Shown in pieces: positions 2,715 to 29,615 of a stretch of DNA of 64,000 nt (positions are counted from its first letter, which is position 1; each line of letters opens with the position of its first letter). Below the pieces are notes generated by a model. It worked only from the letters and a program-made list of their open reading frames with translations, did not search any database and was not told where the DNA came from. A program made the position numbers and the translations under genes. The stretch is from Rosa chinensis (lineage: Eukaryota > Streptophyta > Magnoliopsida > Rosales > Rosaceae): positions 60,220,397 to 60,284,396 of the forward strand of contig NC_037088.1 in assembly GCF_002994745.2 (NCBI RefSeq). Reading direction: 5' to 3'.

Positions 2715-5700
2715 CTATGGAAAATTAATTTGATTATTTGCAATAACTCCCACCAATCCCTCGAGTTCTGTTGCTACTTCTTTCATGGAAGGCCTAGACA
2801 CCCCACTGTCCCTTAAACATCTGTATGCGAGATCAGCAACTTTTTTTGCGGTCTCAATATTTTCCCCATTCACAATTTGTTGATCAAGAATTTGGTCCAA
2901 GAGACCCTTTTCCACTGAACTTTTAAGCAACTCCGCAAGGACTGCAATTCTCTTGCAAGGTTCCTCACGATTAATTGCCTTTCTGCTTGTTAGTAGCTCC
3001 CCAAGGACAACTCCAAAGCTGTAGACGTCACTCTTCGGTGTTAGTTCCTGTCTACGATAATATTCAGGGTCCAAGTATCCGAATGATCCTTTCACATTAG
3101 TTGATATATGAGTTTTATCCATAGAGGTCAACACTCGTGAAATCCCAAAGTCTATCAGTTTTGCCCTGTAATTTTCATCTAACAGAATACTTGTTGTCTT
3201 CACATCTCGGTGTATGATTGGCATAGTGAGGGAGTGCAAGTATGCTAGTGCTCCTGCAGTTTCCGCTGCTATCTTCATTCGTAATTCCAATGGGAGTGTA
3301 ACTGTTGATCCTTTGCTTTTGTCATAAACATGCTCAGCAAGAGTGCCATTGGGGATGAACTCAAAAACCATTGAAGGTACTTCTGACTCTAGACAACAAC
3401 CTAAGAGCCTCACCACATTTTTGTGGTTCAGACGAGAATTGAGAACTATCTCATCTATTACATCCTGATGAGTGTAGGATGATTCAGAAAATTTTTTGAA
3501 CTTCTTTATGGCAACCGCTGTTTCATGATTTGGTAGTATTCCTTTGTGAATTGTCGCAGAGCTTCCTGCACCAACGATTCCACTTTCGTGATAATTGTTT
3601 GTTGCCTTCTTAAGTTCTTCTGCAGTGTAGATTCTAAGTGCTGGTGTAGAAGTTTCCAGATGAATAGACAATCTACCTTTGAATTTGGCGAAATCTGTAA
3701 ACTGCGACCTGAATTTAATGCCTACACTCTTCATGTCGTCGGCCATGAGAACAAGGGCTTCAACATCATCAATTGCCCTAGCAGACTCTGCTGCCGTGGG
3801 TAATTTGCCAGGAAAGAAGCTTGATGAAGGCCAAGTTAGAAGTTTCTCTCCATATAATTCTGTTGGACCCCGCTGTGTATTACTAGCGTAATCTCTCTTT
3901 TCAATACTTAGATGTCCTTCCACAATGATGAGCATCATTTCAAGTGGTTCATTCTCTTGAATAATGACATTGTTCTTAGTATACTTCATCGGTTTAAGAT
4001 GTTCACGTATTACTTTCAGCACTTCTTCATCCATAGTTTGAAGCACTAGCTCCTATATAAAGAAGAACAGAGAGAAAATGAATATCCCATTCAAGTATCA
4101 AAAGTATGTGTCCGGAACTTTGGAAGTCAAGGGTTAATTTGGAGAAATCGGAAGATGTACCTGTTTCAGTCTATTCCAAGGCGAAAAACTTTCGATATAC
4201 CTTCGAAGTTCCGAGGGAAGAATAGAGATGATATGATCTAAACCGGCATTCTTGTTTTCTGCAAGTACTTGTTGTACCTTTTCCATGATCTGCGGCTTTA
4301 TTTTGTCCTTTGGATTCTTAGGCAAGCCAGATTTAGATAACCACAATTCTATCTCCGGACCTATCTCTTGTATCTTTCGTTTAATTTTCATCTTGTGTCT
4401 ATGCGACTCTATTCTTGTAGTCTCCAACTGCATATATGTCTGCACGGATCCGTACCACAAGTCACAAGAAGATTTAAGATGATTTATATTACAATAATCA
4501 TTGCTATTATCAATAATATCTTTTTAACCTGCAGTAGTTTCAGCAGACAGACACACACACACATAGATGGATCCTGCTACTACTCAACAAAATTAAGAAT
4601 GTGAGATTACGAAGAGCCTTAAGACTTGAGTTTAACCTTAAAGAAATTTTTTTGTATAAAACATCACCAACCTGCAAATTTCCAATGAGGTATATAAACA
4701 GCAGCAAGCCCATTATAGAAACAAAAGCCACAAAGAAGTTTTCCCATGTATTCGTACTGGGCTGGAGGTTTGAGCCGAGAGAACTGCAAATATATATGAT
4801 TGATATGAAGAATAAGTTAATATAACACAAATTTCACCCACAGTGTTTTAGTACTTAACCTACCTCAAATTGCGCAAGCCCCAACAAAAGCAATTCGAGA
4901 ACTTCTGTAGAAAACTTGTTGACCTTGGTATACCAGATTGAAACAAACTAAGAAATATACCAAAGTCGAAAAGCTTTGCATTCGGTGGATCAATGGGGCA
5001 TATATCATTCATAAATGTGATATTTATCAATGAACCATGGTCATAACAGCTAAAAGTACTAGTGTCACATTTGTTTTCATTTCGACAAGCATACTGCCAG
5101 CAAATTGTCATTCGTTGGACAGCCAAAAAATACCATACAGCTCCGAGTACCTAAAGAACCAACAACTGAATTAATTAAATTGACTTTTAGAAATTATGGG
5201 AAAAACAAAAGATATATATGAAAATTCACAAAACAGTTTTTTTTTTTTTTAGGTTTGGACGACAATAGTAACCACACACACACCCTCATGCAGTGTATCC
5301 CAGCGTAAAAAGACTAAGCACTGCACTGCACCGCAAACGCACGAACCTTGGTGTTTAATCAACCTAGGTCCCTCAAATCTGTTGGTCACTGGGTGGAGTT
5401 GGGATTCGAACGCTAGACCTGGGGGTTCCAGACTAGGCCGCTCGACCAACACACCACACCACGTGGTTAATTCACAAAACAATTTTGATGTGGTCAAATT
5501 TGCGGAGGATACATTTTCATTCAAAATTTATGTTTAGGCGCCCATTTTGGTAAATTTTAATTTATATGAAGTATGAACGTGCCTTATTTATCTATAAATG
5601 TTATCAAAAAATATTATTCTTAGGAGAACTCATTTTTGTCAGCCAAAATTGACTGATAATACATTTTCATTCAAAATTTTTGTTTAGGTGCCCATTTTGG

Positions 5701-7942
5701 TAAATTTTTAATTAATATGAAGTATGAACGTGTCTTATTTATTTATACTATTATTAAGAGAACCCACTTTAATTTTCAGACAAAATGGGTGTGTTATCTC
5801 TATACCATAGGTTAATTTAAAATAATTTTTAATATATGAAAGATATTATGATAAATAGAAAAATAATAAATAATTAAAAAGAATGAATCTATCAAGAATA
5901 ATTTCTCTTCCCACATTCTGTAGATACAACTTTTCATATCTCATTCTGCATATATAACTTTTCGTCCCACATTCTACATACATAAATTCTAATTTTTGTT
6001 CCTGTAAAAAAGAAAACTAAGATTATAAATAAACTGTTTCACACATGCATCGCATGTCATTGTGTAAATAAAGAGTAGTATAGATAGACTTTGTCAGCCA
6101 AAACAGAAAATTTTTACTAAAATATCCCTCAAATATTAAAAAATATTTGAATTGAAATATTTGAGAAAGACAAAATGGACAACTCACAAATAAAAGAAAA
6201 ACAAAAACAAAAGAAATTTAACAAAAAAAAATCAAAAATAAAAAACAAAATATGTGCATCAATTTTCTCCACATTTTTTAGAATAACTTCCCATGTAATT
6301 ATCTACACCCATAAGGTGTGTTTGGAGTCTAGTTATTATTATGACAACCCACTTTGTCGCTCAAAATGGACACGAAAAGATGTGAAGATTGTCACATTGT
6401 ATATCATCTTTAATTAATTTTCAACTATATTAGAGTAAATAACAATTAAAAGAAAAACATATTGATAACTGTTAAAGTAAATCCAGAATATTTGGCTCGC
6501 CCTAACTTTAGGTTACTTAACCTAGTTGTAATAGAGTTTTGAATTAAAGATATTCTCGGAGATATTCATAGATATCCGATTGATTGTAAAATTATTTTTT
6601 CTTGTACAACTCTGATTCTATGTCTTGTAATCCTCTATATAAAGAGTCCTCTATTATCAATGAAAGTACGACTCAATTCTCTCCCAATTTTAGTTTTACT
6701 TAAACAATAACTACCCATATATAAAAAAAACTTTTCACATTTGTTACTTCCTACGGATATGTGAATTTTTTTTAAAAAAAATCAAAACTCCAGTATGTTT
6801 GATTCGATTTGGAATCTAAACCCTAGTTCTTGGTAGGCCTACCAAGAACTGCAATAACCAAACAATAGTACTCCGAAAATCTATGGAGTTAAAATTAATG
6901 TACTACAATAATTAAGATTGGTACTTACATGACTCGCAAGAATGTACATGAACAAATTTAGTACACCTTTAACCCATATTGCAGTACTCTCTTCATGGAC
7001 AGACTTTTTAGGCTCTTTGCACAATTGGTAGATGCGAAAAACCCGTGGCACATATTGCATCAGAACAAAAGAATTCATAATAAACTTCCTTGTATTTAAA
7101 GATCTTGAGCCCCTCATTTTCGAAAAGAAATGGAGAATTAGAACCTGGATATAAAAAATACCAACAGTTAAAAAGCGTAATGATCAGAATAAATATTTCC
7201 AATCGTGGAATAAAATTTCATAATAATTTCTCTTACCTGCGGAAGAGGGAGAATAGCTAACATGTCAATTAAGATGTATGACCACCAAATCGTCTTAGCT
7301 ATCGTTGTTAAAAAATACTTCCATATGAACTGGAATTTGGAGCAACAGCCTCTTCTCTGACGAAATTTATTGATTAAACCTGAACACTTATCACAATCAG
7401 ATCTGTGAAGTTGAATAATGATGTCCATTATATAAAAGAGGTCAGTAATAGATCGCAAGATAAGAGCTGCTTTCTTCAGGTTTTCGTCCAATCGCAAACA
7501 CGTCATGTCCTGACTGATAATTGGAACGTAGAGGAACAAAGGATCCAATAAAACAGCAAACACACATGATGTTACAAAAATCTTCCTCCATTTTTGAAGA
7601 AAAGAAGCAGCTTCAGCTCTATCACTTTGAATTTCCGCTATTAGTGTTGACCACTTTTTACTTGTTCCTTGTTTACTTTTCCTGGAAAGTTCAGTTGTAC
7701 TGTCTGAGTTAGAACATATTTACTGATCACAATACACAACAAACAAATTAATCAGACGTACAGAAGAAGTAGAAACATGCATGTATGCACGGAGCCTAAA
7801 TTTTCTGTGGCATCAGTCCACTAGAAATGTTTTTAGTTGTTTACTTCCAGTAACTATGTGTTGAGGTTTAAGAAACTAACCTGCTAGCAGCTCTCTCTTC
7901 CGAGGACTTGTCCACAAAAAGAACTACTTCCGGGTTGTCCAT
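2715..7942 (-). CDS. Cyclic nucleotide-gated channel fused to WAK-like protein kinase (918 aa)
   Basis: Seven exons join in phase: 7881-7942, 7237-7699, 6929-7144, 4864-5150, 4672-4783, 4161-4439, 2715-4052. They total 2757 nt with no internal stop. Residues 1-~470 are a plant CNGC: S1 (FVTSCVFAVLLDPLFLYVPI), S2, S3 (YILIDMLAILPLPQ), S4 (QYVPRVFRIY), S5, pore (WGLRNLSSLGSNL), S6 and C-linker (TYMQLETTRIESH). The cyclic nucleotide-binding domain follows at about 476-590 (GEKLLTW). The last, unbroken exon then runs straight into a kinase domain (about 615-905). This has a glycine loop GAGSSAT, Lys656 (VAIK), HRD Asp756, DFG Asp774 and DPEYY. Catalytic-loop Asn is Ser761. Ordinary plant CNGCs are about 700 aa and end with an IQ/calmodulin region, which I do not see here. 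WAK-like kinases normally have an extracellular domain. Predicted membrane protein. A collapsed gene model of two neighbours is unlikely because CNBD and kinase share one exon. Confidence 0.85.
5223..5481 (-). mobile_element. Intact tRNA-derived SINE in the CNGC-kinase intron
   Basis: A 13-bp target-site duplication AATTCACAAAACA (5223-5235 and 5469-5481) brackets a 233-bp body (5236-5468). On the minus strand it starts with a tRNA-like head (GTTGGTCGAGCGGCCTAGTC and a B-box-like CGTTCGAATCCC) and ends in a run of A (the T run at 5237-5250). It therefore lies in the same orientation as the host transcript, inside the third intron (5151-6928). Confidence 0.8.
5507..5749. repeat. Direct duplication, about 150-bp period
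   Basis: A segment containing ACATTTTCATTCAAAATTT and CCCATTTTGGTAAATTTT occurs twice (about 5507-5597 and 5653-5749) with modest divergence. It lies in the same intron as the SINE. It may be a duplicated piece of an older repeat; no terminal structure was found. Confidence 0.6.
6470..6706 (+). mobile_element. Solo LTR of a Ty1/copia-type element
   Basis: The 237-bp segment begins TGTTAAAG and ends TTAAACA, giving TG...CA ends with short inverted termini. It is flanked by a perfect 5-bp duplication ATAAC (6465-6469 and 6707-6711). A TATA-like CTATATAAAGAG sits 60-70 bp before the right end, as in plant copia LTRs. No internal region remains, so it is a solo LTR left by recombination, within the third intron of the CNGC-kinase gene. 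The strand is taken from the TATA box. Confidence 0.8.
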
Positions 7943-8279: not shown

Positions 8280-9932
8280 AGTTGGCATTCATACTCATCG
8301 GATAATACTGGATGGGTAATACCCACCCAATAATAGTTTTTTGGTAATACCTAACAAATAATTCGCGGATATGAGTATTTGCCCAACTCATTTCTAAACG
8401 GGTAAACTCATACTCACTCATTTACCCGTTTTCAATATGGGCAAGTTTTTTTTTTTTTTTTTAATACTCACTATTTAAGCACCCTCATTCCTCATCTGGG
8501 GATATTTTCAAATAATCGATTGAGTATTTCAAATACTTGAGACAATATTGAAGAAAGAAATTGTTGGTCTAGTCACGAGGAAGCAATACGTTTAAAACAA
8601 ATATTTATTTCCGTAAAACAGTTTTCACAACTTGGCGATTAAATGTAAAATAATAAAATTCGGTTCGTAAATGAACCATCCTCACGGATTGTCTTTTGAA
8701 TCGTCTTTTCACAATTATATGATGGTCCAACGGTCAGATCCTCACGGATTGCCTTCTGAATCGTCCTTTCACAATTATACGATGATCTAACGGTCGGATC
8801 CTCACGGATTGCCTTTTGAATCGTCTTTTCACAACTATACAATGATCCAAATGTCGGATCCTCACAGATCGCCTTCTGAATCGTCTTTTCACAAATATAC
8901 GATGATCCAATGGTGGGATCCTCACGGATCGCCCTTAAGATCATCCTCTCAAAATTATACAAATATCCAACAGTCGGATCCCCACGGATCGCCTTTTGAA
9001 TCATCTTTTCACAATTATACTATGATCCAACGGTCAGATCCTTACTAATAACCCTTAAGATCATCCTCTCAAAATTATAAGAAGATCCAACGGTCGGATT
9101 CTCATGGATTGCCTTTTGAACCTTCTTTTTACAATTATACGATGATCCAACGGTCAGATCCTCACGGATCGCCTTTTCACAATTACCATGATTCAACAGT
9201 CGGATCCTTACGGATCGCCCTTAAGATCATCCTCTCAAAATTATACTAAGATCCAACGGTAGGATCCTCATGAATCGCCTTTTGAACCATCCTTTCACAA
9301 TTATACGATGATCCAACAGCTAGATCCTCATCTAATACCACACAAAGTCATCGGAACACTTCTATGATCAATATTTCAAATCTACAAGTCGATCGGACGG
9401 CCTGATCCTCATGGATCAAAACCCATTTACGCCAGTATATCGAAACTACATTTCTTAACAATTGAGACTTTATTAAATTTACGCCAAACAAGAATTAATA
9501 CCAAAAATCTCAATCATTACATTTTGGGTCTCAGAGTTTTGGCCGCACAACACCTCCAATCATGGCGGCTCGTCTCGTTGAAGACTTGAAGGTGTATTCT
9601 GGGTGGGAAACAGAAATGCCCGTTATAGGTTTTTTTTTTTTTCTTCTTTTTTTTAGAATAAGAAAATTATAAAAATGCCCCATATGTTTTGGTTGAAAAA
9701 TAATAGTTCTCAATTTTAAAAAAATTTAGGTGTGGTTTACAATTTTATATGGGTATTTTTGGGTAAAATTTGGGTATCCACGGGTATACCCATATCCCAC
9801 CCATTTTTATACGGGTATTTTGTAATTACCCATACCCATACTCATAAACTATGGGTATTACCCATTAACAGATACCCAAAAGGAAAAATTACCCGCGGGT
9901 ACCCGTACCCTGTGGGTTTTAATGTCATCCCT
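8280..9932. mobile_element. Non-autonomous hAT-like element with internal minisatellite
   Basis: The element is flanked by a perfect 8-bp duplication AATTATTA (8272-8279 and 9933-9940), the hAT target-site length. The ends are imperfect inverted repeats (AGTTGGCATTC on the left; AGGGATGACATT when the right end is reverse-complemented). Subterminal regions on both sides are rich in GGGTA/TACCC motifs, common in plant hAT elements. There is no transposase. The interior holds a 60-bp tandem array. Confidence 0.7.
8676..9333. repeat. 60-bp minisatellite, about 11 copies, two unit types
   Basis: A 60-bp unit repeats for about 660 bp. Its core is GATCCAACGGTCGGATC, an imperfect palindrome with GATCC/GGATC arms. 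Type A units contain GCCTTTTGAATC followed by TTTTCACAATTATAC. Type B units contain GCCCTTAAGATCATCC then TCTCAAAATTATAC. The first copies are all type A, and the later part alternates A and B with one shortened unit near 9165-9190. One degenerate further copy can be traced at about 9370-9420. Confidence 0.9.
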
Positions 9933-11996: not shown

Positions 11997-14900
11997 CTAG
12001 CTTGCATCTGCAGACATAAGTTCAAGCTCTGCCCACCAAAGAGTGGAGAGTTTCGGGGATACTGCATCAGGTGTAAGTCCAGTTATCTCTCTCAGCCTTG
12101 CAGTGACGTCTCTCATTGGCGGTCTTTGTCTCGGGTCAGGATGGACACAAATTCTTATTACTTCTCCAATTCGCTCCAGCTGCTCCTCTTGGAAAGATTC
12201 TAGAGTTGGATCAACCATTCCCTTGAAGGGATGCTCCCCTCTCAAATAGTCAGAAGCCCAGTCTTCAAGTGAGCCATTGTCTACTGAATAAGGGAGTCTA
12301 CCTGTCACGATTTCAAACAAAATTACACCAAAACTGTACACATTACTTTCCAGGCTTGTTGATTGTGCATCAGAAAGTCTTGAGCCAGATGATTGTTTCT
12401 CGGCTTCAGCTATCTCATTCCAGAAAGTGACTTCTGAGACCTTCGGTGCATAATCCTCGGTTAGCTGGACAGCTGAAGAAGTCAAGTTGTTGTGAGCTAT
12501 AGGTGGCTTCAGCTGGTGCATATGCTCAAGGCAGTAGGCCATTCCCATTGAGATTCTCATTCGCATTCTCCAGTCCAGGTGCTCAGCTTCTTTTACTGCA
12601 GTTTCAGTAAAAATAATTTAAACATCTCATGCATCATCAAAACAAAACATAAATAGCAAAACTATAGTTACACTCACTGTGTAAATGCTCGAAAAGTGTG
12701 CCATTGGGAGCATATTCAAAAACCATCATTCTAGTGAAAGGCTCTTCTTCCTCGCAATATCCAATAAGGCTGACAAAATTCTTGTGGTTCACTTTCGATA
12801 ATGTGTCGATCTGAAACCATAACCATAGGAACAATAAGGGCCTGGGAGATTACATTATAGCTTTAAATTGTTTAGTACCTTCTTCCTAAACTGCAACTCT
12901 AAATTGTTGCCCCAACCACTGGCAGATGTTGCTGCGAGAGAAGCCACAGCAATTTCGACACCACTGGATAATGTTCCTTTGTACACTGTACCCATCGGTG
13001 AAGAAGTACCTATAACATTACTGAAATCTTCACAAGCCGCTTGAATCTCCGATCTCTTAAGATTTGGTACACCTGCAATGAGAATCTCCTATCATGTTAG
13101 AAGGTAAACATGAAAAAGAACATGATAAGGGTGGTTTGACAGTCACAAGAGCATGGCAATTATTATCAGCATGAACTTGAGCTTACAGAGATCAATTTTC
13201 TCCATTACGAAAGAAGCAATACCAGTTACAAAGGCTTTCTGAAGCTGCCCGCTTAATCCTGTGGCCCAAGGTTTGACAGTAGCTACCTTGTTGCGTCCAT
13301 AGAAATACAACCCAACAACTAAAATTACAAGAGAACCACCACCGCCTATGGCTCCAGCCATTATTGCAACACGATGACTGGAACTTTCCTTTGGGGGACT
13401 TTCTTGGGGGGAAGGCTCAGGAGAGGAAACTGAAGGTGGAGAAGCAGGTGTGGTTGGTGGGGGCGGAACAGAAGGTGAAGGTGAAGGTGAAGGTGAAGAT
13501 GCAGGTGCAGATCTAGGAGTATATTTCTTGGGAGGATTCAAGCTAGGACGATTTACTTCCACCAGCTGTCTTCCATGGTAGGAGTGTTCAGTATTAGCAA
13601 GGTTCCTGGCAAAGATAAAAGGCAACATCAGAAAAAGCAGGATAATCCAGTGTTTCTAAATAAAAATATCAGATGAAAAGGCAATTACAATGAACACGAT
13701 TTATAAGAGTAACGTGTTCAAATTAGTCAAAGGCATATAATTGATACTGGAACATCCTACGGCAACATGCAATAGCCTCATTTTTCCGACATCATTAGTC
13801 TGCAATAAGTTCTAAACTTTCTGGATTACTCTTCAGCACAAAAGAAATCATGCCAACAGAAAAGTGGCTCACTAAGTTTGATTGCCATCATACCTTGAAA
13901 TGGTTCTTTCTTTGCACGATGATTCTCTGGTTGCACCAGAAAGTTGGTTTTCGTCGACTTGATATTGGGAAAGCATCTCCAGTGCATAAATCTCAGGAGC
14001 TAAGATACTAAGGAGCCTGTTGTTATCTAGTAGCCTGCAATTAAGCAGAAATAAGAGTTACTACAGCATATACGAGAGAAAAATGACCTCAAAAAATCGA
14101 ATTGAAGCTTTGACACACAACTTACAGGATTCTCAATGAAAAATTACTGTCAAGGTCTACTGGAAGTGTTCCACTGAAGTTATTATATCCCAAGTCTAAC
14201 ACCTCCAGTTCCTTCAACTCTCCGATCCCTCCAGGAATTATCCCCATAAAGGAGTTGTTGCGCAAAATACTGTAGAAAATATTAGCTGAGCAGGGCACAC
14301 CAAAAGAGACTAAGAACTCCGCAGAAATTGACTACTAACCATTACATTTGAGGCAATGGTACAAAAATACTTACATAGACTTTATATGAACAAGGTTTCT
14401 GAGCTCAGGTGATAACGTTCCTCCAAGACAAAGATCTTTCAAGTTCCTGCACACCATAAACATCTAACTTTAGAATCAATTAGGCAAAAGCAGTAAAATT
14501 GAACTACCTTCAAGTAACAAAGAATCATAAACAATGGAAGCACTACTACAGGTCATCAAGTGTCAAATTCAAGGTTTTGATTGATTTGTGATAGAACCCA
14601 TGGAGCTATAAAACTAATGAGTAAAGCTATATCTAATTCCCAAAATCATCAAGTAACTTTAGTCAGATGATAATGAATCAATAAAAAACAAATTGGAACT
14701 TTAGTGAGAACTTTACCCTTCCCAATCTTCCAACCAAGACACAATTGTTGATCAACCCCAATCAAACATCATTCAGTAAATGAAAGAAGAAAAAAAAAGA
14801 GTAGTACTTACAAGACCACAACTTTTCCCTCTGAGCATTCAACCCCAAACCAAGAGCAAGGGTCAATCTCTCCATCTTCATCATTCCAGTTCGACAAAGC

Positions 14901-17300: not shown

Positions 17301-20300
17301 TCAAGGGAGCTTGAAAAGTCTTCTCATTCCTATGTTTTTTACATGTTTCTCAAATATGGTCTTAGGCAATGATTTAGTGAACAAATCTGCCTCATTCTCC
17401 TCAGACCTTACTTGATTTACTTGAATCTTGAGGAGAACTTGTTGTTGCTGATTGTATAAAAACTTTGGCAATGTGTTTTGTATTATCACCCTTGATATAA
17501 CATACCTTCATCTGTTCGATGCAAGCTGCATTATCTTCATAAATGCAAGTAGACTCTTCAGTGGTAGAACTCAACCCACTAGTCCCTCGAATATGTGTAA
17601 TGATAGTTCTTAACCATATACACTCACGAACCGCCTCATGTAGAGTAATGATCTCTGAGTGGTTCGAGGAGGTAGCCACAAGGGTTTGCTTGGTTGATCT
17701 CCAAGATATCGACGTGTTCCCAATGGTAAATACATAACCAGTTTGGGAACGACCTTTATGTGGGTCAGAGAGGTACCCAGCATCAACAAAACCAACCAAA
17801 ACATCATTTGGGGTTTCAGTGTAGTGAGTGGCGCTTTCGCCATGAACATTTCCTTTAAGGATTGCAGTTTCATCTGCGGTCCCTCTTGTGTCTCTATAGA
17901 GAAAGAATAGTCTCAAGTCAATTGTTCCTTTTAGGTATCAAAATATGTTCTTGATACCATTCCACTGACGCTGTGTTGGTGCTGAGCTAAATCTAAATAA
18001 CAAGTCTACTGGCAATGCAATGTCTGGTCGAGTACATTGGGCTAAGTACAATAATGTGCATGTTGCACTTAGATAGAGAATTTCAGCTCCCAACACTTCT
18101 TCGTCATCTTCCTTTGAACGAAATAGATCTTTCCTTGCATCCAAACTTCAACCAATCATGGGAGTGTTAGCAGAATGAGTTTTGTCCATGTTAAATCGCT
18201 TGAGCAACTTTTGGACATACGCAGACTGGTGGATTAGTATTCCACAAACTCGGTGTTCTAGTTCAAGACTGGTGGATTAGTATTCCACAAACTCGGTGTT
18301 CTAGTTCAAGGCCTAGACATAATTAAGTTTTTCCAAGATCCTTTATCTCAAATTCAGATTTCAAGTAGCTCGCGGTTTCTCTTATTTCATCAAGACTACC
18401 TATTATGTTCATATCATCGACAGATACAGCTACAATTGCAAATCCGGAACTTGTTTTCTTTATGAATACGCAGGGGCATAATTCATCGTTCTTATATCTC
18501 TTCCCAATCAAGTGGTCACTTAGACAGGTATACCACATCCGCCTAGATTGTTTCAATCCTTAAAGTGAGCATTTCAACCTAATTGCAAACGCACTCCGTG
18601 GTTTAGAGTCACTTGATTTTGGTAATGTAAGGCCATTAGGCACTTTCAAATATCTCTGAATCAAAATCACCATAGAGATATGCAGTAACCACATCCATGA
18701 GCTGCATTTCCAGTCATTCGGAAACTACTAAGCTAACTAAGTAGCGGAACGTTATAACGTCCATTTCGGGAGAGTATGTCTCCTTGTAGTCAATTCCAGG
18801 GTGTTGCGAGAAACCTTGCACCACAAGGCGAGCCTTGTATTTCAAGACTTCATTCTTCTCATTACGCTTTCTGACAAAGACCTATTTATGTCATACAGGC
18901 TTTACACTTAGTGGGGTTAGCACTACCGGACCAAATACCTGTCTCTTTGCCAAAGAAACTAATTCTGCCTGGATTTCTTCTTTCCATTTAGGCCAATCTG
19001 CTCTTTGTTGACATTCTACAACAGTGCATGGTTCGATATCATCGTGCTCTATGATTTCTTAAGCAACAGTGTATGCAAATACATCATCAATGTGTATGGA
19101 AGATCTTTCCATCAACTCATACGCACTCTCATAATCCATTGAGATTTCTTTGTTCTCTGGAATCATTTCAAACATCGGAGTATCCTCCAGTTGATTCATG
19201 GACATAACTATAGTTAGAGACAATCTCATGAAAGGGATTATCTACATTGATGATTAATGGATCGGTTTGTGCCTGACTCGCCCTCTTCTTCCTTGGGTGA
19301 GTGTCAGTCGAACCAAGTGGCCTCCCTCTCTTCCTTTGAAGAGCCACAACGTCAACCACACCTCCACTAAGTGTGGTTACAGAGCCTCTATCTGCTGCAC
19401 TGTGTCCCTTTCTAACCTTGCAGGCACATTTGCAGCTGATATATGTGATCTCGTCACTTTTACGATATTAGTAAACGCATCAGGCATCGAATCTACTACG
19501 TTCTGAAGATCGATTATTATTTTCACTTCACTTTTACATTGTGAAGTGCGGGGATCAAAATGAGACAGAGTGGGGACAAACCACGACAATTCATGTTGTT
19601 CCATGGGAAAATCTTTTTTCCTATCTCCCCCTAATGACCGGAAGACTGTTTCATCAAAGTAACAATCCGCAAATCTAGAGGTAAAGAGATCGCCTATCAA
19701 GGGTTCCAAATAGCGGATAATTGTTGGAGATTCTTATCCAACATAAATACCTAATCATCTCTGAGGACCCATTTTGGTCACTGTGGAGGCGCAATAGGCA
19801 CATATACTGTGCAACCAAATATACATAATTGAAAAGTCAGGCTCATTTCCAGTTACCAACTGGTACGCAAAAAATGGTGGTTAGCAGTGGGTCTGAAACG
19901 AATAAGTAAAGCTGCATGCAATATTGCATAACCCCAGGCAGATATAGGCAGGTTGGTGAGCATAACCAGTGCCTTATCCACCATCTGTAGCCTTTTGATG
20001 GTTGCTTCTATGAGACCATTTTGTGTATGCACATGGGGTATATGATGCTCTACATCGATCCCAATAGACAAGCAATAATCATCAAATATTTTTTATGTAA
20101 ACTCTCCAGCATTATCAAGCCTTATAGACTTGATAAGGTTATTAGGGTGGTGAGCCCTTAAAAGTATAATCTGTGCTAGAAGTTTTGCAAATACAGCATT
20201 TCTTATGGACAATAAAGCGACATGTGACCAACATGTCGAAGCATCCATCAGGACCATAAAGTACTTGAATGGTCCTCATTCTGGATGGATAGGTCCACAG

Positions 20301-26183: not shown

Positions 26184-26888
26184 TTACAATGATGAGATCC
26201 GGTGCCGCATGGTAGAACATGACGGACACATAACTAGACCATTCACATTACAAGTTGTACAAGGACTAAATTCACCGTCACAATGAACCCTATGACTTCC
26301 ATCACATGTTTGGCATAGCACAAACTTGATTCCTCCACATAAGTCACACGGTCTAGAGTCTACCACCGGTAGCCATTGCATCATTACCTTCAGATCACCA
26401 CTTTCATGGAGTTGTCGGATCTCTTCAACCCCACCAACGCATATCCCACTGATGAAGACCATAGGCAAAGTGAAGGTCCTACTTCCCATAAGCTCTTGCA
26501 ACTCCTCGAAAAATTTTGTGTCCATTGACAAATCTCGTTCGTCTATGGGAACACAAAATCCTCTAAAAATTGATCGGACAACCTTACAATCCTCGTAAGT
26601 TCTGCGCACTACACGTAGGCTCGTATAATAGATTACCACACGGCGATCATCGTCGTGTATCCTACTTGGGCGCGCAATGTGGTGGGCCCACAAGCGAAAG
26701 ACTGTGGTGGATGTCTTGGCCCGATGTATGATAGAAGCTCTCCTCGGGGTGAGGGCTTCAGGTTCGGGTTGGAACAAGCTCCGGATGTCTTTAAAGGACG
26801 AGCAAGAAAATCGTCTACGTGATCGCGGTGTTTTGATTGTTCCCACCTTGCTTGGTGATTTCAAATTCAACCATGATGGTGCAAACAT
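26184..26888 (-). CDS. Glutaredoxin-like protein with C-terminal cysteine-rich motif (234 aa), copy 1
   Basis: Single-exon gene. The N-terminal half is basic and low in structure. A thioredoxin-fold glutaredoxin domain spans about 80-170 ([19 protein letters not shown], then [23 protein letters not shown]). A C-terminal zinc-finger-like block has four CxxC pairs (CDLC, CQTC, CTTC, CPSC). This is the layout of the plant At5g39865/At3g28850 family, whose function is poorly known. The usual CPYC or CCxC active site is not present at its normal position, where the text reads TSLRV, so classical thiol reductase activity is doubtful. The Cys after ED is retained. The paralogue at 28783-29502 has the same strand and architecture, indicating tandem duplication. 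The leader holds a 25-G run. Confidence 0.85.
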   Translation of the reverse strand: MFAPSWLNLKSPSKVGTIKTPRSRRRFSCSSFKDIRSLFQPEPEALTPRRASIIHRAKTSTTVFRLWAHHIARPSRIHDDDRRVVIYYTSLRVVRRTYEDCKVVRSIFRGFCVPIDERDLSMDTKFFEELQELMGSRTFTLPMVFISGICVGGVEEIRQLHESGDLKVMMQWLPVVDSRPCDLCGGIKFVLCQTCDGSHRVHCDGEFSPCTTCNVNGLVMCPSCSTMRHRISSL

Positions 26889-26943
26889 GATGGTGAGAGG
26901 GAAAGATTATAAGAACAAATGGAGGATTCTGTCTGGAGGACGA

Positions 26944-28782: not shown

Positions 28783-29502
28783 TTACTGTCCCGCAGTTGA
28801 ACATGAAGGGCACGTAATCATGCCATTCATGTTGCAGTCCATACAAGGGCAAAACCCATCTTTCTGTCTGTAGAGTTTGTGGCTTCCGTTGCAAGTCTGG
28901 CAGAGAATAAATCTCAGCCCTCCGCATACATCACAAGTTTTGGACTCCACCACCGGGAGCCCTTGGAGCATTGTCTTTAGCTCTCCACTTTCATGGAGCT
29001 GCCTCACCTCCTCGGCTCCACCAATGTAGTCTCCGCTGACGAAAACCATGGGCAAGTTCAAGTCCTTGCTCCCAGTGACCTCCTCCAGCTCCTGCACAAA
29101 CTTGGAGTCCATTGACAGATCTCGCTCGTCAATGGGGACCCGAAACCCTCCGAGGATCGATCTGACCACCCTGCAATCCTCAAAGGTCCTCCGCACCACA
29201 CGGAGACTCGTGTAGTAAATCACTACACGTTGGTCTCCGTTGCGCACTTTGCAGCCACTTGGGCCCTCTACGCCGCGAGCCCATAGGCGCAGGAGGACCG
29301 TGGTGGACATCTTGATACGCTGCAAAATGGAGGCACTCCTCGGGCTCAGGACCTCGGTTTCGGGTTGAGATTTGCAGAGGTTTTGGTCCTTTTGGATGTC
29401 TCTGAAGGATGAGCAAGAAATACTTTTGCAAGAACGCGGTGCTGGCGCGGGTTGGTTCACCTTGCTCGGTAATTTCAACCATGAGGATGAGAACATGGCC
29501 AT
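28783..29502 (-). CDS. Glutaredoxin-like protein with C-terminal cysteine-rich motif (239 aa), copy 2
   Basis: Single-exon paralogue of the gene at 26184-26888. It is collinear over the whole length ([10 protein letters not shown] at the start; [15 protein letters not shown], then [12 protein letters not shown] in the glutaredoxin fold). CDVC, CQTC, CMDC and CPSC pairs lie at the C-terminus. It is the better conserved copy relative to the family text I recall. As in copy 1, the CPYC/CCxC site is absent. The two copies differ at many positions, so the duplication is not recent. Redox or metal-binding regulation is possible, but the function is not known from sequence. Confidence 0.87.
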
Positions 29503-29605
29503 GAAGATCGAACAGAGAGAGACTAAACAGCAAATGTGTGGGTTTGTAGAGGGGAAATGAAACCTGATTAGCTTTTGTTGGGTGGTGTTTAGTGGAGTCT
29601 GGAGG

Positions 29606-29615
29606 GCTATTTAAG
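29606..29615 (-). promoter_or_regulatory. Probable TATA element of glutaredoxin-like copy 2
   Basis: The minus strand reads TTAAATAGCC about 105 bp upstream of the start codon, matching the position in copy 1. Confidence 0.4.

Follow-up and report, generated by a model that had tools for sequence, protein, structure and literature searches.

A Rosa chinensis gene joining a CNGC1-like channel to a WAK-type kinase domain, and related fusions in Rosaceae

The window analyzed here is a stretch of 64,000 nucleotides of Rosa chinensis (contig NC_037088.1, positions 60,220,397 to 60,284,396 of assembly GCF_002994745.2), and all coordinates below refer to it. On its minus strand, a gene running from 7942 to 2715 encodes in a single polypeptide a cyclic nucleotide-gated channel (CNGC) and a WAK-type kinase. 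Seven exons are spliced into an open frame of 912 codons plus stop, the initial annotation having counted 918, and the gene span is 5.2 kb including introns. The GT-AG junctions given by that annotation were recomputed and are found in all six introns, with sizes from 80 to 1778 bases. From the N-terminus, the 912-residue product comprises a CNGC pore, a C-linker, a cyclic nucleotide-binding domain (CNBD), a linker of 22 residues, and a whole WAK-type kinase domain. A Pfam scan of this protein gives Ion_trans at residues 54-381, cNMP_binding at 489-576 (a match that falls under the Pfam cut-off), and Pkinase at 621-894. The rose protein belongs to a family of CNGC-kinase fusions in Rosaceae, in which a CNGC1-like channel continues past the CNBD into a WAK juxtamembrane segment and kinase; the single-gene fusion proposed initially is upheld by the spliced frame, the Pfam domains, and the homologues.

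All exons lie on the minus strand. Exon 1 (7881-7942) holds the start codon and the N-terminus. The start Met and a MxNPEV N-terminus are common to P0002 and Rubus P0003 in the alignment (compared proteins are cited by P numbers), and the start of the 912-residue model is upheld because the N-terminus of P0003 aligns with it. According to the spliced frame and the alignment with the structure of Arabidopsis CNGC1 (9j34), exon 2 (7237-7681) corresponds to the N-terminal cytosolic part and the first transmembrane helices, exon 3 (6929-7144) to the transmembrane region, exon 4 (4864-5150) to S5, the extracellular loop, and the start of the pore helix, and exon 6 (4161-4439) to the C-linker. Exon 5 (4672-4783), assigned from the frame and a motif count, contains the pore and S6 with the selectivity filter LGSNL, whose GSN codons are at 4776-4768. 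Exon 7 (4052-2715) is a single 445-codon open frame comprising the CNBD, the linker, the complete kinase domain, and the stop. Within it, the CNBD-like domain (residues 468-585, from Pfam and the 9j34 alignment) occupies 3699-4052, with Glu556-Ser557 at 3788-3783. The junction linker (residues 586-607, 3633-3698) stands, by comparison of junctions, at the position of the calmodulin-binding IQ tail of canonical CNGCs. The kinase domain (residues 608-900, 2754-3632) was delimited by Pfam, homologue search, and residue alignment, and its sites are Lys650 (3506-3504), the HRD Asp750 (3206-3204), Ser755 (3191-3189), and the DFG Asp768 (3152-3150). Residue-to-window coordinates of the GSN codons, the CNBD, and the kinase sites are hand counts along the sequence.

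The homologues were taken from protein searches, two of which gave the best 120 of 1321 and the best 120 of 482 matches, and 253 proteins were compared in all. The search for single proteins with both domains, which had been suggested as a check, gave 61 of these 253 matching both halves, a number that includes part-length matches such as P0116 and P0068 and several Malus entries that are isoforms of one locus. The kinase precedes the channel in none of them. All 60 fusions with a recorded source are from Rosaceae, among the matches listed: Rosa, Rubus, Fragaria, Prunus, Malus, and Pyrus. A plant-wide fusion was rejected, none being found outside Rosaceae among these best matches, beyond which weaker fusions from other families could lie; also, the precomputed domains of the matches listed give no kinase in the rows from Ziziphus, Rhamnella, Morus, Ulmus, and Coptis. 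The Rosa chinensis database protein P0001 (833 residues) is 100% identical to the 912-residue model and lacks its first 79 residues. Its database name is that of a WAK-family kinase, and many relatives are named "CNGC1-like" or "uncharacterized". P0002 is a fusion of 909 residues, 72% identical to the rose protein, whose longest contig has 3239 nt. It is likely an assembled spliced transcript of the ortholog of the rose gene, because a continuous frame of 2730 nt is found on this contig, as compared with the 5.2-kb intron-bearing rose gene. In peach, fused genes carry close locus tags (PRUPE_2G223500, 223600, 223700, and 224000), and in Prunus campanulata two fused genes carry the adjacent tags ACE6H2_008336 and 008337; unfused relatives are among the neighbouring tags, and clusters are suggested in both species. 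As a separate observation, some CNGC relatives have multiplied C-linker/CNBD units (P0092, P0042, and P0045 in Rosa chinensis, and P0010-P0012 in Malus/Pyrus), the 1551-residue P0092 having more than 10 C-linker-like repeats and three CNBD-like repeats.

In the channel half, the Ion_trans match scores 28.5 bits against a cut-off of 25, which identifies a voltage-gated-like six-helix ion transport domain with P-loop, and residues 46-584 align with 9j34 with E = 1.2e-115. The filter triplet SNL, as in the rose LGSNL, is present in 44/53 fusions and 30/68 unfused relatives, and QNL in 3/53 and 17/68, respectively. In the phosphate-binding cassette, GExLLxW is retained and the Arg-Thr of Arabidopsis CNGC1 is changed to Glu556-Ser557; among the proteins where the pattern matched, Glu-Ser is also seen in many fusions and in some unfused relatives. 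In animal CNBDs, the cassette Arg anchors the nucleotide phosphate. Since Arg-Thr is replaced by Glu-Ser, gating of the rose protein by cyclic nucleotides appears doubtful. Moreover, no IQ motif was found after the CNBD of the rose protein, and a strict IQ pattern at this place occurs in 2 of 62 fusions (the rose protein counted), namely P0074 and P0109. Another 12 fusions, from apple/pear, match a loose pattern, with LQSIYx or LRSIYx located between repeat units. More distant Rosaceae CNGCs, for example P0090 and P0104, have the IQ motif.

The unfused matches of the rose kinase are mainly named WAKs, with kinase identities of up to 59% among the WAK-named unfused matches listed. In a kinase tree built by a quick method with 34 fusions and 34 other proteins, the rose kinase falls within a clade of WAKs and fusions, apart from LRK10-like and CrRLK1L kinases; among solved structures, its best match is FERONIA. 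The Pfam scan gives no GUB_WAK or EGF extracellular domain in the rose protein. Regarding catalysis, the rose kinase retains Lys650, the alpha-C Glu, HRD, DFG, and the activation segment GSFGYLDPEY. However, its catalytic-loop Asn is replaced by Ser755, which leaves the residue set of an active kinase incomplete, and its third P-loop Gly is replaced by Ala. The "full kinase domain" of the initial annotation is therefore correct for the fold, which is complete, and not for the catalytic residues. P0002 and P0003 keep the catalytic-loop Asn. For a wider comparison, representatives were chosen by clustering at 90% identity, giving 32 fusions and 103 unfused kinases (mostly WAKs, plus some CrRLK1L, LRK10-like, and LRR kinases); 13 short or weak kinase domains were left out, six of them fused (P0109, P0040, P0041, P0108, P0068, and P0116). 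Among the 32 fusion representatives, the Lys is kept in 30, the HRD-Asp in 22, the catalytic-loop Asn in 22, and the DFG-Asp in 10, all four being present in nine. By comparison, all four are intact in 99/103 unfused representatives. Catalytic residues are lost in most fused relatives and, judged by these residues, the kinase is eroding.

In the rose protein, the two halves also differ in their rate of change. Between the rose protein and Rubus P0003, identity is 83% in the transmembrane region, 76% in the C-linker, 71% in the CNBD, and 66% in the kinase, and the transmembrane identity of the rose protein to P0003 and P0002 is 83-87%. When the same 12 fusions are compared in both halves, the rose protein has an end branch of 0.035 in the channel as against 0.32 in the kinase, a ninefold difference. 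Conservation is highest in the pore region, and fast change has occurred notably in the kinase of the rose protein. This fast branch, as seen in protein comparison, would fit relaxation or positive selection alike.

A channel tree of 86 rows was built by a quick method and rooted at the midpoint, 33 proteins of short channel stretches being left out. In it, the rose protein groups with P0002 and Rubus P0003 with a support of 100. The main clade around them counts 41 rows, of which 33 are fused; it has a value of 99 in the Shimodaira-Hasegawa-like approximate likelihood ratio test (SH-aLRT) and covers Rosoideae, Prunus, and the apple tribe. Because this clade spans all three groups, a fusion that predates their split, followed by later losses, is favoured, although the starred branches force eight changes of the fused/unfused label over the whole tree and P0037 is placed with unfused relatives. 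Junctions are alike across the main clade: the helix of the CNBD is followed by a short linker that varies, then by a FTxxELxKATNNY-type motif of the WAK juxtamembrane segment, and then by the kinase; likely, recombination within the last CNGC exon added a WAK kinase exon. A single origin of the fused kinases was tested with 27 fusions and 22 other kinases chosen for this end. With P0061 left out (26 rows), the approximately unbiased (AU) test gives p = 0.212, and with P0061 included p = 0.165. In the free kinase tree, the starred branches force three label changes, and P0009 from F. vesca is placed apart. The kinase tree is compatible with one origin, which it neither proves nor rejects.

Some fusions stand outside this main group. 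The channel of P0037 (P. dulcis) lies among unfused relatives, and the kinase of P0061, a partial entry, is nested among ordinary WAKs; both may represent a merged model, a conversion, or a separate fusion. The channels of P0074 and P0108 (Prunus) and of P0109 (a partial entry from Rosa sericea) belong to another CNGC branch. P0074 and P0109 retain the IQ motif before the kinase, P0109 has two kinase domains, and in P0074 the DFG is changed to GFG. Besides, the P0074 kinase forms a long branch outside the group of WAK and LRK10-like kinases, and its best matches among solved structures are BAK1 and BRI1. These three proteins are best read, from their sequences, as an independent fusion of a CNGC to a BAK1/BRI1-like kinase. 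Finally, in P0061, P0079, and P0112, kinases of WAK type are joined to channels of a further branch; this lineage may be separate or may in part reflect annotation merges.

An AlphaFold model of P0001, calculated with 40 sequences, has a mean predicted local distance difference test score (pLDDT) of 74.9 and a predicted TM-score (pTM) of 0.52. Foldseek ranks 9j34 first for this model, and the best PDB matches are CNGC1, CNGC5, and the kinases of receptor-like kinases (RLKs). The kinase part reaches a TM-score by target of about 0.9 with the RLK kinases, and the channel half superposes poorly on 9j34, with a root-mean-square deviation of 13.7.

With a probability of about 0.42, we propose that the rose protein is a cation-channel subunit whose kinase fold would work as a C-terminal cis regulatory or docking module and not mainly as an enzyme. 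A docking, substrate, or conformational module is more likely than an enzyme because catalysis is failing in most members. The protein would be a subunit of a plasma-membrane cation channel, probably Ca2+-permeable, forming tetramers, perhaps together with ordinary CNGC1-type subunits, with the kinase folds suspended beneath the CNBD ring. In a channel lineage that has neither the calmodulin-binding IQ tail nor the Arg typical of the cyclic nucleotide cassette, the kinase fold would serve receptor kinases and receptor-like cytoplasmic kinases (RLCKs) as substrate or partner, and the pore would be gated through it by conformational or phospho-switching. Control of this type from outside the polypeptide is described in parts of PMC9194748 and PMC7830781: calmodulin inhibits CNGC2/4 and phosphorylation of the CNGC4 C-terminus by BIK1 partly relieves it, OsRLCK185 activates OsCNGC9, and phosphorylation by BAK1 is proposed to cause turnover of CNGC20. 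By analogy, immunity or wall-damage signalling would be the likely setting.

However, several observations weigh against this proposal. The immune setting is drawn by analogy, and, while Ca2+ permeability of the rose channel is probable, GSN is not among the Arabidopsis CNGC filter triplets listed in the relevant part of PMC7830781. Kinase activity is possible within the Rosa-Rubus subclade because Lys, the alpha-C Glu, HRD, and DFG are kept in the rose protein, and P0002 and P0003 also keep the Asn. P0003 has no kinase excess in the set of 12 fusions (end branch 0.088 for the channel and 0.072 for the kinase), and P0015 and P0038 are less similar to the rose protein in the CNBD (46% and 44%) than in the kinase (53% and 54%), so the kinase is not the sole fast part. 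The loss of the IQ tail is not tied to fusion either, since the strict pattern is found in 6/78 unfused channels, and the nearest unfused Rosaceae CNGC1-like channels inspected (P0042, P0067, P0075, P0081, P0085, and P0088) have no IQ motif. As these relatives likewise lack the tail, the idea that the kinase replaced it was dropped: the kinase occupies the place of the canonical calmodulin tail, whose loss may predate the fusion. Also, with a pTM of 0.52, the packing of the kinase on the channel in the model is not reliable.

A close rival of the docking module is an integrated-decoy immune receptor, in which the kinase fold would bait effectors that attack WAK or RLCK kinases, and the channel would raise cytosolic Ca2+ once the bait is modified. 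The eroded catalytic residues, the fast rose kinase branch against the slow pore, the apparent gene clusters in peach and Prunus campanulata, and the use of a BAK1/BRI1-like kinase in another CNGC-kinase fusion all agree with it. So do the cereal kinase fusion proteins: according to portions of PMC10260397 and PMC10260399, they function in disease resistance, a pseudokinase is often part of them, and decoys have been proposed among their domains. Nonetheless, relaxed constraint predicts the same rate pattern, we know of neither a resistance locus nor an effector or cell-death phenotype, and we consider the decoy unlikely on balance. Slightly more unlikely is the active enzyme that had been suggested initially, a second-messenger-gated Ca2+ channel whose kinase would phosphorylate the channel or its partners. 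The kept Lys650, alpha-C Glu, HRD, DFG, and GSFGYLDPEY, the Asn of P0002 and P0003, and the similarity of the modelled kinase to RLK kinases speak for it. On the other hand, the Ser and Ala substitutions of the rose kinase, the catalytic losses in most fused relatives (the DFG-Asp is missing in 22/32 representatives), the Glu-Ser cassette, and the cNMP_binding match below cut-off do not support a working channel of this kind.

The erosion of the kinase and the truncation of some relatives could also mean that a redundant CNGC1-like duplicate is decaying toward a pseudogene. This is improbable, considering the uninterrupted frame of 912 codons, the GT-AG borders of all six introns, the high transmembrane identity to P0003 and P0002, the occurrence of fusions in Rosoideae, Prunus, and Malus/Pyrus, and the transcript-like contig of the ortholog P0002. 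As for an artefact of annotation or assembly joining neighbouring CNGC and WAK genes, the outliers P0061 and P0037 could be such merges. For the rose gene, this explanation, already dismissed initially, is ruled out for practical purposes because the CNBD and the kinase share one exon (2715-4052 passes from one to the other in an uninterrupted frame, as had been claimed), and like junctions recur in proteins of several Rosaceae genera. Beyond the docking module itself, we tentatively entertain a wider idea, which we hold as less probable than that module and less doubtful than the decoy: that sensor-executors made of one polypeptide arose in Rosaceae on at least two occasions, with a kinase or pseudokinase of receptor-kinase origin wired to a Ca2+ channel. 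They would be immune receptors or channels under receptor control, and effector modification or receptor phosphorylation of the kinase fold would open the pore.

In the surroundings of the gene, a tandem array of ~60-bp units lies upstream at 8678-9331, with ~8 copies in 8678-9177 and further degenerate copies beyond, and a perfect two-copy tandem duplication of 66 bp lies downstream at 1706-1839. On the minus strand, exons of a neighbouring receptor-like kinase, presumably MRH1/MDIS-like, are found at 11997-13655, with an atypical kinase domain that has HNNLTSSAV in the position of the HRD loop. Further away on the same strand are a fragment at 17404-17937, which we take to resemble a Copia-type retrotransposon polyprotein, and two adjacent and similar long frames at 26187-26906 and 28786-29610, which we assume to be glutaredoxin-like.

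If the rose protein is compared with Arabidopsis CNGC1, a group I channel, both share the transmembrane pore, the C-linker, and the CNBD, aligned over residues 46-584, whereas the rose protein has GSN instead of GQN in the filter and Glu-Ser instead of Arg-Thr in the cassette, lacks the IQ motif after the CNBD, and carries an appended kinase. With WAK/WAKL receptor kinases, it shares the kinase and the juxtamembrane segment. However, the fusion has no WAK ectodomain and is tethered to a channel, and the catalytic residues are eroded in most fused members. Animal TRPM6 and TRPM7 also join a cation channel and a C-terminal kinase in one polypeptide. Nevertheless, the likeness is by analogy only, as had been stated, since TRPM proteins combine an unrelated channel family with an atypical alpha-kinase; membership in the TRPM-type channel-kinases was rejected, the channel being a CNGC and the kinase matching Pkinase and RLKs. 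Cereal kinase fusion and tandem kinase proteins (Sr43, Lr9/WTK6, Pm4, and Yr36) are similar in having a lineage-specific kinase or pseudokinase joined to an unrelated domain. However, their partners, as given in portions of PMC10260397 and PMC10260399, are lipid-transfer, C2/multi-transmembrane, MSP, NLR, vWA, or unknown domains and not ion channels, and the word "channel" is absent from PMC10260397. Rosaceae, moreover, are a dicot family, and the likeness rests on the domain fusion, the resistance role being known for the cereals. The initial remark that no characterised plant protein combines a CNGC with a WAK-type kinase agrees with our full-text literature searches, where none was named among the papers listed and no description of a CNGC-kinase fusion was met; the Rosaceae CNGC survey by Mao et al. 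2021 (Plant Cell Rep) and a pear CNGC paper that PMC9400807 refers to were outside their scope. The main text of PMC9400807, a plant CNGC paper, does not contain "kinase", nor does the review PMC7830781 contain "kinase domain" or "fused". CNGCs and kinase fusion proteins are known kinds, and their combination is new within the literature searched.

Plant immunity involves, at an early step, the entry of Ca2+ through CNGCs, and phosphorylation of CNGC tails by RLKs and RLCKs is a known control in trans, according to the parts of PMC9194748 and PMC7830781 that deal with it. The fusions described here have both parts joined in one polypeptide, with catalysis then decaying, and offer a direct test of the role of a kinase fold for a CNGC. 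Gene surveys may have split or misfiled such genes. The range of kinase fusion proteins, as encoded by cereal resistance genes, would widen to include an ion channel as well as rose and fruit crops. If the sensor-executor reading is true, these Rosaceae proteins would be a plant channel-kinase class previously unrecognised.

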